A stretch of DNA of 64,000 nucleotides. It comes from Siphonodentalium dalli (Eukaryota; Mollusca; Scaphopoda; Gadilida; Siphonodentaliidae). The translations under genes were made by a program, and so were the position numbers. Below are positions 10,416 through 54,300 of the stretch, in pieces (position 1 is the first letter of the stretch; every line of letters begins with the position of its first letter). The DNA lies in NCBI GenBank assembly GCA_032622095.1, contig CP136067.1, positions 73,992,705-74,056,704 on the forward strand, in the 5' to 3' direction. Below the pieces are notes generated by a model, which had not been told where the DNA came from, searched no databases, and saw only the letters and a list, made by a program, of their open reading frames with translations.

Positions 10416-10830
10416 GCCCGGCTCCCGTCATGGAGGGATCAAAGCACAGTTTGTGTTCAAACATGACCGAAAAAAACAACAAGGCGTGCCCCTTTAAAGT
10501 TTAATTAATTGTTAATTATGGCCAGGTTCGATAGTGATGGTTTGTAAATCAATGTGTTTTGAGCACAGTCATTTAGAAGTCACTGAGTAAAGTACATGGT
10601 CAGGTAATATATGAAAATGCCCCGCCTATCACTTATATTCCACTTATTTGGATTAGCACTAAATCAGTTAATATTTTGCTTTAATATTGGTACCTGAGAC
10701 ATGTAGTTACAATATGGTGTATCGCCCGTGCACTTCCTAAAATTTACCAATTCATGAAATGAACTCGTTTATATTTCATGGTCGTATTTTGACCAGGGTA
10801 CTGCGTAGTTTATTCTATTCCACGATATTA
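10416..10830. other. Intergenic, no gene recognised
   Basis: AT-rich sequence with no repeat boundary or exon-like frame until the terminal repeat that starts at 10831. Confidence 0.45.
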
Positions 10831-10905
10831 AAGGGGGACTTACACAAAATCCGGTCATGTATGGGACCATCTCCTTTTATACTCAACAGAATATATGCAA
10901 CAGAT
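10831..10905 (+). repeat. Left terminal inverted repeat of composite element
   Basis: It matches the reverse complement of 13940-14013 with scattered substitutions. Shared blocks include AAATCCGG, ACCATCTCCTTTT and ATACTCAACAGAATA. Confidence 0.7.
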
Positions 10906-11110
10906 GAATAAATGTGATAACATTGACTAGTGCAAAATACACTGGTGTGCCCAGTGAACTACTCAAACAACATGGTATTATAATGAAAAAGAATTCGTGA
11001 TTCTGTTCATAACTTCATTTTCATTATAAGCACCATTTTGTTTACATCATTTCTAGACAGACATGACAATTGGAACTTATTCCCTATTCCTTATTCCTTA
11101 TTTTCAAAAA

Positions 11111-11913
11111 TGTCGCTTTCGACCGATTTGACGGCATGGGTGGGTGGCCCGCCCCAAATACCACCTAGAAACAACCCGACCCCCCACCCATCACCCCCGG
11201 GGGGTGCCACCCCGAGGGGGTGAAAATGGGGTATGGACCATTTTCGAGAACGGTAAGGATTTCGACCGATTTGACGGGATGGGTGGGTGGCCCGCCCCAA
11301 ATACCACCTAGAAACACCCCGACCCCCCACCATCACCCCCAGGGGTGCCACCCCGAGGGGGTGAAAATGGGGTATGGACCATTTTCGAGAACGGTAAGGA
11401 TTTCGACCGATTTGACGGCATGGGTGGGTGGCCCGCCCCAAATACCACCTAGAAACACCCCGACCCCCCCACCCATCACCCCCGGGGGTGCCACCCCGAG
11501 GTGGTGAAAATGGGGTATGGACCATTTTCGAGAACGGTAAGGATTTCGGCCGATTTGACGGCATGGGTGGGTGGCCCGCCCCAAATACCACCTATAAACA
11601 CCCCGACACCCCACCCATCACCCCCGGGGGTGCCAACCCGAGGGGGTGAAAATGGGGTATGGACCATTTTCGAGAACGGTAAGGATTTCGACCGATTTGA
11701 CGGCATGGGTGGGTGGCCCGCCCCAAATACCACATAGAAACACCCCGACCCCCCACCCATCACCCCCGGGGGGTGCCACCCCGAGGTGGTGAAAATGGGG
11801 TATGGACCATTTTCGAGAACGGTAAGGATTTCGACCGATTTGACGGCATGGGTGGGTGGCCCGCCCCAAATACCACCTAGAAACACCCCGACCCCCCCCA
11901 CCCATCACCCCCG
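11111..11913 (+). repeat. 142-bp GC-rich minisatellite, left arm (~5.6 units)
   Basis: The landmark GACCGATTTGACGG recurs at about 11121, 11264, 11405, 11548 (GGCC variant), 11690 and 11833, giving a period of 141-143 bp. Units are nearly identical and much richer in C and G than the surrounding DNA. They contain CCCCGACCCCCCACCCATCA and a CCCCCGGGGG-type centre. Because 142 is not a multiple of 3, long frames run through all phases on both strands. They are artefacts. Confidence 0.9.
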
Positions 11914-12107
11914 ATTAGATTAATATATATTAATATATAATTGGATTTAAATATTGATATGGATTCCAGTGAATAAACAAATAAGTTTCAGTTGTGTGGA
12001 TATAAATGGATATGAATGAATATGCAACGGTCAATTTTCTCAATAACAAGTTTTGGAGTATGTTTTGGCTGCATTTACTAAGGAGAATTATTAAGACTTA
12101 TAAGCAT

Positions 12108-13090
12108 ATATGAAGTCCGGCAATGCATAAGATGACGAAAACCGGATATCGACCATACGAGCGTGACGTGTATCATAAGGAATTCAGTCATATATGGAGT
12201 CAGACAATGCATAAGAGAACGAACACCGGTGATCGTCCATACGAGTGTGATGTGTATCAGATGGAATTCAGTTAGTTATGGAGTCTTGCAAAGCATATGA
12301 GAACGAACACCGGCGATCGACCATACGAGCGTGACGTGTATCATAAGGAGTTCAGTCATATATGGAGTCTGACAATGCATAAGAGGACGAACACTGCCGA
12401 TCGTCCATACGAGAGTGACGTGTGTGACAAGGAATTTAGTCATATATGTAGTCTGACAATGCATAAGAGGACGAACACCGGCGATCGTCCATACGAGTGT
12501 GACGTGTATCAGAAGGCATTCAGTTATGTATGGAGTCTTTCAAAGCATAAGAGGACGAACACTGGCGATCGACCATACGAGCGTGACGTGTATCATAAGG
12601 AATTCAGTCATATATGGAGTATGGCAATGCATAAAAGGACGAAAACCGGCGATCGTCCATACGAGTGTGACGTGTATCAGAAGGAATTCAGTTATATATG
12701 GAGTCTGACAATGCATAAGAGGACGAACACCGGCGATCGACCATACGAGCGTGACGTGTATCATAAGGAATTCAGTTATATGTGGAGTCTGGCAATGCAT
12801 AAGAGGACGAACACCGGCGATCGACCATACGAGCGTGACGTGTACCATAATGAATTCAGTCATACGTGGAGTCTGGCAATGTATAAGAGGACGAACACCG
12901 GCGATCGACCACACGAGCGTGACGTGTGTCATAAAGAATTCAGTCATATATGGAGTCTGACAATGCATAAGAGGACGAACACCGGCGATCGTCCATACGA
13001 GTGTGACGTGTATCAGAAAGAATTCAGTCATATATGGAGTCTGGCAAAGCATAATAGGACATAGACCGGCCATCGTCCATACGAGTGTGC
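12108..13090 (+). repeat. 84-bp tandem array derived from C2H2 zinc-finger DNA
   Basis: The landmark ATGGAGT recurs near 12192, 12276, 12360, 12444, 12528, 12612, 12696, 12780, 12864, 12948 and 13032, an exact 84-bp (28-codon) period with almost no indels. Two unit types partly alternate: GAGCGTGACGTGTATCATAAG and GAGTGTGACGTGTATCAGAAG. This suggests amplification of a two-unit (168-bp) block. Confidence 0.9.
12123..13064 (+). pseudogene. Zinc-finger-like array lacking zinc ligands
   Basis: The frame reads about 11 repeats of the C2H2 scaffold TNTGDRPYE-x-DVY-x-KEFS-x2-WSL-x2-HKR. The Kruppel-type linker (TGEKPYE-like), the core Phe and the core Leu are kept, but the ligands are not. In the nine consecutive units from 12297, Cys1 is C in three units and R or S in six. 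Cys2 is C in two and Y in seven. The first His is kept in eight. The second His is N or K in all. No unit has all four ligands, so a folded zinc finger is not expected. An in-frame TAG at 12273-12275 interrupts the frame and it ends at 13062-13064. I infer a captured finger exon that now spreads as satellite DNA inside the element. A protein with an unrelated role cannot be excluded. Confidence 0.65.
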
Positions 13091-13185
13091 TATATATGAT
13101 ATTTAGCGATTTAACTAAAACTTGCAACTACTGTGTCATGAAGTGGGTTATCATGTGATCTGGCAGTTTTTTCAGACTAATTAAA

Positions 13186-13836
13186 CGGGGGGTCGGAGTG
13201 TTTCTATGTGGTATTTGGGGCGGGCCACCCACCCATGCCGTCAAATCGGTCGAAATCCTTACAGTTCTCGAAAATGGTCCATACCCCATTTTCACCACCT
13301 CGGGGTGGCACCCCGGGGGTGATGGGTGGGGGTTGGGGTGTTTCTAGGTGGTATTTGGGGTGGGCCACCCACCTATGCTGTCAAATCGGTCGAAATACTT
13401 ACCGTTCTCGAAAATGGTCCATACCCCATTTTCACCCCCTCGGGGTGGCACCCCCCGGGAGTGATGGGTGGGGGGTCGGGGTGTTTCTAGGTGGTATTTG
13501 GGGCGGGCCACCCACCCATGCCGTCAAATCGGTCGAAATACTTACCGTTCTCGAAAATGGTCCATACCCCATTTTCACCCCCTCGGGTGGCACCCCCCGG
13601 GGGTGATGGGTGGGGGGTCGGGGTGTTTCTAGGTGGTATTTGGGGCGGGCCACCCACCCATGCCGTCAAATCGGTCGAAATACTTACCGTTCTCGAAAAT
13701 GGTCCATACCCCATTTTCACCCCCTCGGGGTGGCACCCCCCGGGGGTGATGGGTGGGGGGTCGGGGTGTTTCTAGGTGGTATTTTGGGCGGGCCACCCAC
13801 CCATGCCGTCAAATCGGTCGAAAGCGACATTTTTGA
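13186..13836 (-). repeat. 142-bp minisatellite, right arm (inverted, ~4.6 units)
   Basis: Reverse complement of the left arm. TCAAATCGGTC recurs at about 13241, 13381, 13524, 13666 and 13809. On the + strand each unit has a canonical four-tract G-quadruplex pattern, for example GGG-AGTGAT-GGG-T-GGGGGG-TC-GGGG near 13458-13482. Confidence 0.9.
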
Positions 13837-13939
13837 AAATAAGGAATAAGGAATAGGGAATAAGTTCCAATTGTCATGTCTGTCATTTCTAGAGCACATG
13901 GCTGTTTTTTCATTATTCCATGGCTCAAATTCATTAATT

Positions 13940-14013
13940 TGTCGCATGTATTCTGTTGAGTATAAAAAGGAGATGGTTTCATAAATGGCCGGATTTAGTG
14001 TACAGTAACCCTT
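13940..14013 (-). repeat. Right terminal inverted repeat of composite element
   Basis: It mirrors 10831-10905: TATTCTGTTGAGTAT, GGAGATGGT, CCGGATTTAGTGTAC and AGTAACCCTT. The element edge is near 14013, followed by TAC. Confidence 0.7.
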
Positions 14014-14179
14014 TACAAATATCCGGATTGGATCGACATTCTTGTGACCCCACTCATATACAGGTATAGCTGCTCGGGTATATAGTTTGGGTATGTCGCT
14101 GACGAAACTACTGCCTTATCAGGCCATATGTTCAAGCCAACCGTCACCAGTGTATATCCTTTTGCTCCGTGGTAAATGA

Positions 14180-14199
14180 TTGCTCTTATACATTTTCAG
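14180..14199 (+). promoter_or_regulatory. Candidate 3' splice site upstream of the transposase-like gene
   Basis: The T-rich stretch TTGCTCTTATACATTTTCAG|G has the form of an acceptor eight bases before the likely start codon (ATG 14207). If used, a 5'UTR exon lies upstream, which would place the first part of the transcript in or beyond the composite element. Confidence 0.35.
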
Positions 14200-14206
14200 G
14201 GACAGT

Positions 14207-16069
14207 ATGGACCAAAGGCCACCAGTCGGCACTATTAATGCGGCGAAAATTGCAGACGAAGAAGACTGTATGGTCCACCCGGAAGTCAGGATGGTCATTG
14301 ATGCATTGATCGAACAAGTTTGCGCATACACTTATGACGTTTCTGAAAGTGCGACCGACCACAATGACTTGTCGGATATTGTTAACACTTCACAGACTGA
14401 TATGGCTCGCGAGGATATCTTAAACGCGGATGTCAGGGTGGTCATGGATGACTTGGTAGAACAAGTTTGTGCAAATGCTTATAACGTTTCTGAAAGTTTG
14501 GTTGATCACAATGACTTGTCGGATATTGTTAATACTTCACAGACTGATATGTTTCGCGAGGACATCTTAAACCCAGAAGTCAGGGTGGTCATGGATGCCT
14601 TGGTAGAACAAATTTGCGCATACACTTATAATACTACTGAATGTTCGGTCGACCAAAATTACTTGTCGGATATTGCTAACACTACAAAGACTGACATGGT
14701 TCGCGAGGACATCGTAAACGCGGAGGTCAGGGTGGTCATGGATGCTTTGCTAGAACAAGTTTGTGCATACACTTATAAAGTTTCTGAAAGTTTGGTTGAT
14801 TGCAGTGATTTGCCGGGTATTGTTAACACTTCACAGACTGATATGGTTCGCGAGGACATCTTAAACGCGGAGGTCACGGTGGTCATGGATGCCTTGGTAG
14901 AACAAGTTTGTGCAAATGTTTGTAACGTTTCTGAAAGTTTGGTTGACCACAATGACTTGTCGGATATTGTTAATACTTCACAGACTGATACGTTTCGCGA
15001 GGACATCTTAAACGCGGAGGTCAGGGTGGTCATCAATGCCTTAATAGAACAAGTTTGTGATCACTTTGGAAGTGTTGTCGAGAAAACAGATGGGTCGAAC
15101 ATTGGCAGTAACTGTTCTGTATCTATGGCAGTTCACGGAGACAACGTGCATACGGATGTGATGGCAATGCTCGATGGTATAGTAGAAGACATTTGTAGCG
15201 TCTATGAGGATTTTGATAACACAGATGGATCTAGTGATGCTGATTTTAGCGTGTTAGATCTTGACGTAGTTCGCGAGGAGTTTGTGTGTGCCGAAGTAAC
15301 AGAATTTGTCGATGAATCATGGACCACAGCGTATATTGATAGAGGCGTTGAACTGGACGTCGAGCGAGCCGTCCTAGAAGGGCCTTCCACAAGTTATAAA
15401 GGTGGTAGTGAATTAGTGGAATATATGGATGTGAGCTTTGAACCATCTACCAGTACACGGGAAGTCTTATCAACGCACGAGGACACAGATATGTCTACTG
15501 CTAACGATTCAGACGGTGACAGTGACGATGATTCGGATGAGACTGATTATGAGCCTAGCTACTCTGAGGCGGACGACACGGGCGCGAGTGACACTGGCGC
15601 GAGTGACACTGGCGCGAGTGACACGGGTGGGGACATGAGCATGCAAATTGATGAGAGAAATGTTGAAGAATCTCAACCTGAAACGAAAAAGCGTTCGCGA
15701 AAGCGTAAACGCAACCCATCTGAGTGGGCAAAAAACATTAAGAAGCGATGTCGACAGTCTGGGTCGGAGTACGAGAATCTTCGTGGGAAGATTGTCAAGA
15801 GCAAACAGATGGGCCGGCAGAACGATTGTCGCGGGTTATGTAGATTCAAATGCTATGACAAAGTTGACCGCGATAGACGGGAAACACTTTTTGAAAAATA
15901 CTGGTCTCTTTCTGACCCAAAAAAAAATGTGTTTTATTCACAGACTACGGAGCGCGTGGCTAAGTCTAGAACATCAGGCTCCGGTCGGAGAAAATTTGCA
16001 TTCCGGTATTATTTTATCGCGGATGGGGAAAACATCGTGTTTGTCGGGAATTCTACCTGTCTGTTCTAG
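14207..16069 (+). CDS. Transposase-like protein, N-terminal part (DUF7869-type family)
   Basis: 620 codons from ATG 14207 (context GACAGTATGG). Residues about 24-270 are five near-identical 49-residue repeats with core VRVVMDALVEQVCA ... DLSDIVNTSQTDM, followed by two or three degenerate ones. Residues about 426-475 are acidic and contain (GASDT)3. About 493-506 is a basic nuclear-localisation-like segment (KKRSRKRKRNPSEW). From about 541 comes a Cys-rich block (CRGLCRFKCYD) and DRRETLFEKYWSL, typical of the head of a large family of metazoan transposon-encoded proteins annotated with a DUF7869 domain. The frame then hits TAG at 16067-16069, but the family's next motif (VCREFYLSVLDIS) is present in frame 1 from about 16039. 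The stop is therefore due to a frameshift of one missing or two extra bases at about 16034-16045. Probably nuclear. Transposase activity is inferred from the family, not shown. Confidence 0.7.
   Translation: MDQRPPVGTINAAKIADEEDCMVHPEVRMVIDALIEQVCAYTYDVSESATDHNDLSDIVNTSQTDMAREDILNADVRVVMDDLVEQVCANAYNVSESLVDHNDLSDIVNTSQTDMFREDILNPEVRVVMDALVEQICAYTYNTTECSVDQNYLSDIANTTKTDMVREDIVNAEVRVVMDALLEQVCAYTYKVSESLVDCSDLPGIVNTSQTDMVREDILNAEVTVVMDALVEQVCANVCNVSESLVDHNDLSDIVNTSQTDTFREDILNAEVRVVINALIEQVCDHFGSVVEKTDGSNIGSNCSVSMAVHGDNVHTDVMAMLDGIVEDICSVYEDFDNTDGSSDADFSVLDLDVVREEFVCAEVTEFVDESWTTAYIDRGVELDVERAVLEGPSTSYKGGSELVEYMDVSFEPSTSTREVLSTHEDTDMSTANDSDGDSDDDSDETDYEPSYSEADDTGASDTGASDTGASDTGGDMSMQIDERNVEESQPETKKRSRKRKRNPSEWAKNIKKRCRQSGSEYENLRGKIVKSKQMGRQNDCRGLCRFKCYDKVDRDRRETLFEKYWSLSDPKKNVFYSQTTERVAKSRTSGSGRRKFAFRYYFIADGENIVFVGNSTCLF
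14278..15060 (+). repeat. 147-bp coding tandem repeats
   Basis: Five to six in-frame 147-bp units encode the 49-residue repeats. The last units (15061 to about 15330) decay but keep the pattern (VHTDVMAMLDGIVEDIC, FVCAEVTEFVDES). The exact multiple-of-3 length and retained frame show expansion while coding. Confidence 0.85.
15577..15630 (+). repeat. 15-bp coding VNTR (GASDT)n
   Basis: Three 15-bp units (GGCGCGAGTGACAC(T/G)) plus partial flanks encode GASDT repeats inside the acidic region. Likely length-polymorphic. Confidence 0.75.
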
Positions 16070-16114
16070 ACATATCGCCGAGAAGAGTAGCGTGGTATCA
16101 TATAGCCATAATAA

Positions 16115-17410
16115 GTGCGCGAATACACATGTATACCCACAATCAAAGCTAGAGGAGTGCACACAGGACCTCGAATTCCAGAGGCCAAGCGGGAGTTTAT
16201 TAAACAACATATTAATAGTATTCCACGAGTGGAATCTCATTATTGCAGAGCCAAAACTACTAAAGAATATTTCGAACAGTCTCTTAACCTGTGCAGACTA
16301 TATCAGAAATACGTTGAATATTGTGAGTCACTCGATGAGGAACCAGTGAAAGAACACACCTACAGAAATGTGTTTAATTACGACTTTAACATCGAATTTC
16401 AGCGACCGAAGAAGGATCGTTGTGACACATGCGAGCAACATCGCATGAAGACCAAAAACGGAGAGGAAGTGTCTTCTGAAATATATGACGGACATATTCA
16501 GGATAAATGCGCAACCTACGACGAACGGCAGAATGACAGGAAAGGGAACTCCGCGGTGGTTGTGTTTGACATCGAAAATGTCATAAGTTGCCCGAGGGCA
16601 AATGTATCTAATTTTTTCTATCTCCGTAAATTCACAATGTACAACATGACAGCCCACTGCTCGACGGACAAGCAAGTCTATTGTGCCGTTTGGGGTGAAC
16701 ATTTAGCTGGTCGGAGTGGAAATGATGTAGCGAGTGCGGTTATTAAAATTATGGAAAAAGTGGCTGATGACAATCCTCGAATTTCCAAATTTATCCTTTG
16801 GTCCGACTCGTGCGTACCCCAAAATAGAAACAGCATCATGTCGACAGCATTGAAACACTTCATGCTTGAACATCCGGGAATAACTCAGTTAGAACAAAAG
16901 TTTTCAACCCCCGGTCATTCCTCTGTGCAGGAAGTCGACAACGCGCATAGCCAAATTGAGAAAAGGATGAAAGTTATCGAGATTTATAGCCCAATTGGTG
17001 TGGTCCGTGTTTTGTTACAAGTGAACAAAAAGAAACCGTTCAAAGTCATCCAGCTGAAAGCTGACGACTTTCGAGACTTCCAATATACGGCAAAAGGTAT
17101 GAAGTTCAATCAAGTCCCCTATACTCGCGTGAAGAGTATCCTGTATGAAAGTTCGGGGCCCTCGTCCATTCGATACAAGGACTCTTTCACAAACCCATTC
17201 ATATTTGTGAGTGACTTAACGAAAGGCACTGGGAAAAATACTCGAAGCAAAAATCAGAAGAACCCAGTGTCTTTTTCTGACACTGGTGCCATTCTTCAGC
17301 CCTCTAGTCTTGCCAAAGACAAGATCAAGGACATCGAGTCCATGTACATATACATGCCGACTATTGATGTGCATTTCTACACAGCAATTTTTAATTCCAG
17401 TGGGAACTGA
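16115..17410 (+). CDS. Transposase-like protein, C-terminal RNase H-like part
   Basis: Same frame as the upstream part but without a valid ATG at its head, so it is a continuation and not a separate gene. Homologous sequence runs in frame 1 from about 16039, then returns to frame 2 by about 16140 (KARGVHTGPRIPEAKREF), giving two compensating shifts about 100 bp apart. Visible family motifs: SIPRVESHYCR, a Cys pair in RCDTCEQHRM, VVVFDIENV (Asp codon 16568), ILWSDSCVPQNRN (Asp codon 16805), and PGHSSVQEVDNAHSQIEK (Asp codon 16937 with a conserved His). The order FD.. / SD..QNRN / (E)VD..H..IE fits an RNase H-fold nuclease core with three acidic residues, all present here. The protein ends with TGA at 17408-17410. 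It may be a recently inactivated copy, an assembly error, or an unseen splice. Confidence 0.68.
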   Translation: MREYTCIPTIKARGVHTGPRIPEAKREFIKQHINSIPRVESHYCRAKTTKEYFEQSLNLCRLYQKYVEYCESLDEEPVKEHTYRNVFNYDFNIEFQRPKKDRCDTCEQHRMKTKNGEEVSSEIYDGHIQDKCATYDERQNDRKGNSAVVVFDIENVISCPRANVSNFFYLRKFTMYNMTAHCSTDKQVYCAVWGEHLAGRSGNDVASAVIKIMEKVADDNPRISKFILWSDSCVPQNRNSIMSTALKHFMLEHPGITQLEQKFSTPGHSSVQEVDNAHSQIEKRMKVIEIYSPIGVVRVLLQVNKKKPFKVIQLKADDFRDFQYTAKGMKFNQVPYTRVKSILYESSGPSSIRYKDSFTNPFIFVSDLTKGTGKNTRSKNQKNPVSFSDTGAILQPSSLAKDKIKDIESMYIYMPTIDVHFYTAIFNSSGN

Positions 17411-31619: not shown

Positions 31620-32685
31620 CCGTCAAAGTCAAAGCAATTACCGGTTTATTAAACGTTTTTTATTCGCACCATATCAGGACTACGCTTAACATGGAATGCT
31701 CTTTATTGAGTCACGGTGAAGGAAAGTGGGGCTTGACTTAGAATAGTTACTAAATTATTCCTCAATATACTCCACACTTTAGCTGCAATTTTATGTATTT
31801 GTAAAATAAAGCGCTCTTTATTTGGTATATGCAATCCCTTTTAAACGATATGTTCGATTGGATATACTCATGACAAGACGCTCCGGCAAATTTATATTCT
31901 TTACAGGAGTTGACGTTTTTCCCACAGAAATCCCGCCAAATGTCACGTAAACGAACATCGTTTGGAAATGAATGTAGAATTATACCTAATTGAGAGTCAC
32001 AACACTGGCCACAGCCGAAAACACTGCATTTATTTGGCATTGTCATGGATGAATGAACGAAAAATAATTGTGAATATATGGGACACTCGGGGCATATATA
32101 TGGAAAATTGTAACAACATTGTGAACACGCACCCTATTAGAATTCACATGTTGGCTCGTGTTTTATAAACTTTTGACACGACAGTGTTATCCACCCCGCT
32201 CAATCGGCCTTCTATATTTATGTCAAAGCAATAACTTTCCAAACAGCACTTATGACAAATCACAAGAGAAGATAACTCATGGGGCGATGACAATTCACCA
32301 CGTATACACAATGTTATTGACATGCCCCGCAGTAATTCCATTACACTCACATGCTCGTGTCGATTCCGCATTTTATGTCGCCACTCAGATGATGTCATAT
32401 AGGTAGACACAATTAACTCCGATTCCGTGTTTTGAATTAGTCTACTCATATGAGGATTTGCGACGGAGATAGCCGACAACCGGTGGGGTTATTATTAATT
32501 TATTTCTCGGCTTATTAATTACGCGATTGTTATGGGAATTAGATCATTGTAATCATAATAGGGGTGGCTTTCCGATAGTGTTTTGTTGTATTCATCAGGA
32601 TAGCAATCCTTTAAGTGCAAATAAAAATTAATATGCATTGATCCCCATATTGATTTGTTAACAAAGCTTAAAGCTCTAGTTTTTA
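31620..32685 (-). mobile_element. THAP-domain element, copy 1
   Basis: More than 1 kb is homologous, in opposite orientation, to 53100-54300, including non-coding spacers. In its sense direction (right to left) it carries a C-terminal peptide LKDCYPDEYNKTL..ESHPYYDY...ITIA-stop (about 32630-32525), a 111-codon open frame (32479-32144) and the THAP frame (32046-31762). The right edge is replaced by the AGCTCACCTGAG repeat from 32686. No terminal repeats identified. Confidence 0.6.
31762..32046 (-). pseudogene. THAP zinc-finger protein fragment, internally deleted
   Basis: 94 codons. It starts MTMPNKCSVFGCG, the canonical THAP start with the C-x4-C pair, followed by ILHSFPNDVRLRDIWRDFCGK, which matches the THAP beta strand/helix with its invariant Trp. 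It then jumps to an unrelated tail. Compared with copy 2 (53637-53995), about 180 bp carrying the C-x2-H pair (ICSVHF) is missing at an AAA junction, so the zinc site is incomplete. THAP domains bind DNA and occur in P-element transposases and host proteins. This copy should be inactive. Confidence 0.6.
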
Positions 32686-53099: not shown

Positions 53100-54300
53100 T
53101 ATAAAGGTAGTTGAATTGGAGCTTAAAGGATTGCTATCCTGATGAATACAACAAAACACTATAGGAAAGCCACCCCTATTATGATCACAATGATCCAAGT
53201 CCCATAACAATCGGGTAATAAATAAGCTGAGAAATACATGTAATTAAATAATACCCTAACCGGTTGTCGGCTATCTCCATCGCAAATCCTCATTTGACTA
53301 ATTCAAAATATGGAATCGGAGTTAATTGTGTCTATGACGTCATATGAGTGGTGATGTAAATGCGGAATCGACATGAGCGCCTGAGTGTAATGGAAATACT
53401 GCTGGGCATGTCAATAACATTGTGTATATGCAGTGAATTGTCATCGCCCGGTGAGTTATCTTCATGCACTTGTCATAGACAACACTGTTATGTCAAAAAT
53501 AAAGCTTATAAAAACCCGAGCCCACATGTTAACTCTATATTCGGGTGCGTGTTCACGATGTTGTTTTAATGTTCCATATATATGCCTCGAGTGTCCCATA
53601 TATTCACAGTTATCTTTTGTTTATTCATTCGTGACAATGCCAAATAAATGCAGTGTTTTCGGCTGTGGCCGGTATAGTGACTCTATATATATAATATAAT
53701 TAAAATTCTACATTCATTTCCAAGCAATGTTCGTTTACGTGACATTTGGTGGGATTTCTATGGGAAACCCGTTGCGCAAAATCAGAAACTATTAAAGTGT
53801 TTGACGATGAAATGGTCCAGAATTTGTTCCGTCCACTTCGAAAAAAATATATATTTTGAGCACAATGTGAATATTACTTGGCCACAACCGTGGCTACCGA
53901 CAACTCAGACGAGACGCAACACCCACATTAAACAAACCTACCACCGACGAGAATGGCATCCTAAGAAAAACGTCAACTCCCGTAAAGAAATATAAATTTG
54001 CCGGAGCGTCCAGTCATGAGTATATCCAATTGAACCTTGAATATATGAAATAAAGAGCGTTTAATTTTACGAGTCAGACATGGTTACGAAGACATAAAAT
54101 TTCAGTTCAAGTGGGGAGTATATTGATGAATAATTTAGTAAATATTCACAATGACAACTATTCTAAGTCGAGTTCCCACTTTCCTTCACCATGACTCAAT
54201 AAAGAGCGTTCCACATTAAGCATATTCCTGATATCGTGTGCATAAAAACCGTTTAATAAAAAAACGGAAATTACTATGACATTGATGGGTATATACATAT
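53100..54300 (+). mobile_element. THAP-domain element, copy 2
   Basis: Opposite-orientation homologue of 31620-32685, matching across coding and non-coding parts. The LKDCYPDEYNKTL peptide is present at about 53130-53170 but cut by a TAG where copy 1 has TCG. The internal frame of copy 1 (32479-32144) is broken here. The 3' part shares CAATAAAGAGCGTTCCA-CATTAAGC. No terminal repeats identified. Confidence 0.6.
53637..53995 (+). pseudogene. THAP zinc-finger domain, frameshifted
   Basis: MPNKCSVFGCG (frame 3) stops at 53697-53699 after a small deletion. The remainder lies in frame 2 from about 53705: ILHSFPSNVRLRDIWWDFYG, WSRICSVHFEKNIYF and WLPTTQTRR. Together these show the THAP order C-x4-C ... 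IW ... C-x2-H-F ... P, so copy 2 holds the half that copy 1 lost. Not translatable as one protein. Confidence 0.6.

Follow-up and report, generated by a model that had tools for sequence, protein, structure and literature searches.

The described systems closest to the locus reported here are Tetris, Galileo, Tm1 and Cg_HINE. Tetris of Drosophila virilis is a non-autonomous foldback element with 8-10 bp target duplications and 220-bp tandem repeats; three structurally complete copies were found, and its TIR-220 also forms free satellite arrays (PMC4079207). Galileo of Drosophila willistoni has arms that were lengthened in one copy by direct tandem repeats of about 140 bp and that also grow by recruiting non-arm DNA (PMC4168063). 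Tm1 of root-knot nematodes is assigned to a Mutator/Foldback family with composite inverted repeats of variable length and 9-bp duplications, and occurs in motif-bearing, MITE-like and transposase-bearing forms (PMC3169594). Cg_HINE elements of the Pacific oyster are Helentrons with central satellite-like repeats (PMC7492417). The basic plan of the element described below, consisting of an end domain, a tandem-repeat domain and a variable middle, is already known from Tetris. The family itself is not described in the listed titles and abstract openings on foldbacks with satellites, foldbacks in molluscs, bivalve tandem-repeat MITEs, long-inverted-repeat transposons or zinc-finger-derived satellites.

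The locus lies in a stretch of 64,000 nucleotides (the window) on contig C7 of the Siphonodentalium dalli genome, which comprises 2.23 Gb in 9 contigs. It almost certainly represents two nested DNA transposons, an old palindromic TTAA MITE and, inserted within it, a non-autonomous foldback-type element of 2827 bp at positions 11057-13883 that is bordered by a 9-bp target duplication. The nesting is evident from an 11-bp direct repeat overlooked in the original prediction, TCATTTCTAGA, at 11047-11057 and 13883-13893, which abuts a 61-bp inverted repeat of 100% identity (11056-11116 and 13824-13884) and therefore indicates two nested insertions; when 200,000 pairs of positions were sampled at random across the full window, tandem arrays included, 84 showed a direct repeat of at least 9 bp by the same test. 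The ends of the inner family, ACAGACATG..CATGTCTGT, set the element boundaries at 11057 and 13883 and trim the direct repeat from 11 to 9 bp, CATTTCTAG, with the left copy at 11048-11056 and the right copy at 13884-13892. From the outside inwards, the inner element consists of 60-bp terminal (flanking) domains (11057-11116 on the plus strand and 13824-13883 on the minus strand), and of two arms of tandem units of 142-143 bp in opposite orientation, the left with 5.6 units (11117-11913, plus strand) and the right with 4.5 units (13187-13823, minus strand). The middle is made up of three plus-strand segments: a loop flank, lf (11914-12104), which is an abundant repeat also located ahead of the zinc-finger satellite at other places, 11.7 units of a dead 84-bp satellite derived from C2H2 zinc fingers (12105-13089), and a second flank, rf (13090-13186), which leads from this satellite to the right arm and whose junction is conserved in other copies. 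The inverted 142-bp arms, the inner inverted repeat and the finger-derived core of the original prediction are all borne out by this layout. Part of the 142-bp unit, used as an exact pattern, had no match in collections of viral and prokaryote sequences.

The inner element belongs to a family dispersed throughout the genome. All 40 scored places of its 65-bp end, out of 1184 candidates, match at 100% identity, 29 of them over 65 and 11 over 64 bases; two of the 40 are the ends of the window copy itself, and the ends are present on all nine contigs. The 20 regions that we fetched account for 23 of the 38 end matches listed outside the window; because copies were chosen for the quality of their best end match, the sample is biased towards young copies. 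Together with the window copy and two copies picked later that also match lf (L078 and L079), 11 copies from these regions make up a set of 14 complete copies. In 12 of them both 60-bp ends are identical to those of the window, while the left end deviates in L066 and L068; the family ends can be described as ACAGACATGACAATTGG ends. Perfect duplications of 8-9 bp lie directly outside ACAGACATG..CATGTCTGT in 11 of the 14 complete copies, and an abutting duplication is absent from L057, L063 and L078, the last of which shows an 11-bp match that is offset on the left by about 6 bp. Arrays of the 142-bp unit are found in every one of the 20 regions, with arms ranging from 1 to 39 scored units. The middle varies as well. 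In 11 of the 20 regions the arrays meet with almost no loop between them, including L068 with a single array and L059 without a left end. Five regions (L061, L062, L067, L076 and L060) carry parts of a second, unrelated loop at 93-96% identity, reaching 2.7 kb in L061, three (L069, L070 and L074) carry the zinc-finger loop, and L058 carries another middle. The family thereby displays the hallmarks of foldback elements: long terminal inverted repeats with internal tandem repeats, target duplications within the range of about 7-10 bp, and a variable or exchangeable middle. L059 also contains two right ends at one locus whose right flanks agree at 30 of 30 bases, as if a stretch bearing the element had been tandemly duplicated.

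The inner foldback resembles Tetris in its arms, where a terminal flanking domain is followed by a tandem array (142 bp as against 220 bp) and then by an inner domain, and in its variable middle; it differs from Tetris in that a dead zinc-finger satellite can form the middle and in the number of complete copies, with 14 read here compared to the three given for Tetris. A stretch common to the 60-bp end and the 142-bp unit, as in Tetris, was not found (best E 0.91). The resemblance to Tm1 lies in a split family, in 9-bp duplications and in inverted repeats that are composite and differ in length; Tm1 carries histone-hairpin motifs where the inner foldback carries the zinc-finger satellite, and no counterpart of the transposase-bearing form of Tm1 was found in the foldback loops read for frames. 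Galileo belongs to the P superfamily and has mostly 7-bp duplications, as opposed to the 8-9 bp duplications seen here and the 142-bp arrays in all 20 fetched regions. With Cg_HINE, the inner foldback shares the condition of an animal mobile element bearing central satellite-like repeats. We considered a Helentron or HINE identity and rejected it, for the inner foldback has target duplications and long inverted arms. Helentrons and HINEs are not known to have either feature.

Both the outer and the inner element would move by cut and paste, using transposases supplied in trans by autonomous relatives. For the inner foldback, our preferred guess is a Mutator-like transposase, because the 8-9 bp duplications resemble the 8-10 bp of Tetris and the 9 bp of Tm1, elements that their authors have assigned to Mutator or compared with it; superfamily labels for the outer and inner element alike would rest on target-site size. 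Unequal exchange or slippage may lengthen and shorten the arms and the satellite, and, as in other foldbacks, capture or replacement may alter the middle. No transposase frame was detected in the loops of L061 and L062, the two loops that were read for frames; the longest closed frame there, outside the frames of the 142-bp arrays, has 149 aa, and no Pfam transposase was found among 8 translations. Target duplications of Merlin elements measure 8-9 bp, the same size as in the inner family, and an affiliation of the inner foldback with another superfamily (P/Galileo-like, Merlin-like or hAT-like) is accordingly a possibility to be taken into account, if one that we consider to be the less probable assignment. 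It would also be in line with Galileo, a P-superfamily element with foldback-like arms whose duplications are mostly 7 bp and sometimes 8 bp (PMC4168063). The mixture of 8- and 9-bp duplications is nevertheless closer to Tetris and Tm1, and a Mutator-like origin therefore remains our favored reading.

The central satellite is of clear zinc-finger descent and represents dead DNA. A 262-aa frame in the 84-bp core (12276-13064) matches the Pfam model zf-H2C2_2 with an E of 4.4e-22 and solved zinc-finger proteins with a best E of 2.5e-44, which makes its ancestry plain. To this open frame can be added further observations that would suit a gene on the element that functions or did so until recently: stop-free runs elsewhere, comprising about 21 dead finger units in 2.4 kb read of L084 and a long run in L085, and, in the window considered by itself, third codon positions that vary most (33 changes against 22 and 12) and 21 synonymous changes where 15.2 are expected. 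Pooling 167 ungapped units (116 distinct) from 12 sources leads to a different picture. Every one of the 167 units has lost at least one of the four zinc ligands, the second cysteine being replaced by tyrosine in 156 and the second histidine by asparagine in 151, and 22 units contain a stop codon. The 124 distinct variants divide into 26 synonymous, 91 non-synonymous and 7 stop changes, compared to 25.0, 92.6 and 6.3 expected without selection, and the codon-position signal of the window vanishes in the pooled set. The satellite consequently has neither the Cys2-His2 ligands nor the coding constraint of a functional C2H2 gene. This neutral pattern outweighs both the stop-free run in L084 and the third-position signal of the window, so the coding reading was rejected and a working gene is highly improbable. 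Since the ligand losses are common to the pooled sources, we infer that an already dead finger was amplified, rather than that a gene array decayed at this locus.

The satellite is not restricted to the foldback. In the genome as a whole, 344 matches were obtained in 40 scored of 562 candidate places, and L077, L084 and L085 contain the satellite with neither the foldback end nor the 142-bp unit in the 1.6-3 kb fetched. The notion of a captured finger thus holds insofar as the satellite derives from a finger and some copies have it in their loop; it needs amending in that this satellite was already dead and is also present elsewhere. At L077 (G000:C9:134688827-134697514) five lf matches lie on one strand at a spacing of 2.0-2.4 kb, and in the 3 kb read there lf and broken zinc-finger satellite together form a tandem unit, with the foldback end and the 142-bp unit absent. 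At L084 (G000:C3, about 212.08-212.156 Mb) matches to the zinc-finger satellite extend over about 77 kb.

One copy of the inner foldback shares an internal breakpoint with the window. In L078, on contig C1, a truncated 142-bp unit meets lf at the same point as in the window, with one base differing beside the junction. A stretch of lf present in both of these copies is absent from L077, L079, L080, L081, L082 and L083. L078 differs from the window copy in arm length and finger number, having 15 scored finger units. A foldback with its arms and loop probably moves as a composite. The shared breakpoint on C1 could in principle stem from duplication instead of transposition because L078 has no clean target duplication. 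Two other copies, L079 and L081, have rf and the satellite in inverted orientation on both sides of the loop, in effect a further arm layer, an arrangement comparable to the recruitment of non-arm DNA reported for Galileo.

The outer element is a palindromic TTAA MITE that is abundant in the genome. It spans 10832-14012 with the insert inside and measures about 350 bp without it; its left part (10832-11056, plus strand) includes the left copy of the inner target duplication, and its right part covers 13893-14012 (plus strand). The left TTAA target duplication lies at 10828-10831, and its counterpart on the right (14013-14016) reads TTAC, which comparison with other copies identifies as TTAA with one change. 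The outer inverted ends lie close to where they had been predicted, but are longer than the 75-80 bp first proposed, with 10829-10937 pairing with 13906-14015 at 80.2% identity over 111 columns. When the interior is removed and the flanks are joined, the resulting 351 bp, including three target-site bases on each side, align with their own reverse complement over the full length and are predicted to fold as a single long stem that has minor branches close to the center. The palindrome score of the joined sequence is 239, whereas 200 controls with shuffled middles average 169.7 and do not exceed 213. All 40 scored places of the outer end, out of 666 candidates, match. We surveyed 24 of the 39 other listed places in stretches of 0.8-3.1 kb (25 entries, with L007 and L009 being one place) and found full-length copies at 10 of the 24 loci, the remaining 14 being shorter or partial. 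Four full-length copies (L014, L015, L018 and L022) are exactly 351 bp long, and eight of the ten are flanked by TTAA on both sides, L014 and L023 being the exceptions. Short, non-coding, with inverted ends, a fixed target sequence and many copies, the element has the properties of a MITE, and it is judged to be old because its full-length copies are only about 73-82% similar to the window copy. A TTAA target is a trait of piggyBac- and Kolobok-type transposons.

The original prediction had regarded 10831-14013 as a single mobile unit whose own terminal inverted repeats enclose nested inverted satellites and a captured finger. Its mobility is confirmed in the sense that the outer and inner sets of inverted ends both recur throughout the genome, and the matching ends adjoining TTAA and TTAC as well as the symmetric inverted structure are what a single unit would show. 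Its unity is contradicted by three lines of evidence. Neither the inner end nor the 142-bp unit nor the finger satellite is present in the fetched stretches of any of the 24 other outer-end loci; the inner ends recur elsewhere with 8-9 bp target duplications of their own; and the outer inverted ends are about 80% alike as opposed to 100% for the inner ones, which was the first sign of two ages. Satellites at other loci without the outer ends had been named at the outset as grounds against one element, and precisely this is observed, which separates the outer ends from the satellites. In addition, L002 and L008 align colinearly and over their full length with the joined MITE across the junction, with a single copy of the target stretch and no insert; these two loci have a common right flank and are not fully independent, and they represent empty sites in other members of the MITE family, not an insert-free allele of the window locus. 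A single unit therefore has hardly any probability left, and two nested insertions account for the locus. Equally implausible is an interior that arose as an inverted duplication of satellites, by local rearrangement or as an assembly artefact, and not as a transposed unit: satellites are prone to rearrangement and long palindromes are hard to assemble, but the 38 end matches listed outside the window copy are all at 100% identity, ten other complete copies have perfect target duplications, and the same breakpoint between arm and lf exists on contig C1.

The sequence surrounding the two elements contains further repetitive and transposon-like features. Starting about 165 bp past the outer MITE, a 629-aa frame, in which a 147-bp (49-aa) repeat is present in 5.4 copies, is followed by a shifted 431-aa frame with no Pfam match (14180-17410 in all). 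The 629-aa frame matches the Pfam PNPase RNA-binding model with an E of 4.5e-10, above the cut-off; the match falls within the repeats, and no single stretch of it passes. These frames are possibly a broken transposon-type or repetitive gene. Two similar THAP-domain fragments, at 31762-32133 on the minus strand (Pfam E 9.8e-4, below the cut-off) and at 53681-53995 on the plus strand (E 6.8e-5, just above it), are perhaps transposase remnants.

Returning to the foldback family, its copies suggest, as a tentative idea that we would not rate as the likelier course of events, an element that grows inwards: a dead satellite becomes the middle, and rf together with the satellite then becomes an additional inverted arm layer, as in L079 and L081, while transposition in a burst may disperse the 142-bp and 84-bp satellites through the genome. 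The family offers a young natural series in which the same foldback ends are combined with differing arm lengths and middles and in which one breakpoint is common to two chromosomes. Such a series of copies allows direct tests of how foldback arms expand and how satellites board mobile elements, and it documents the conversion of a zinc-finger gene fragment into neutral satellite DNA.
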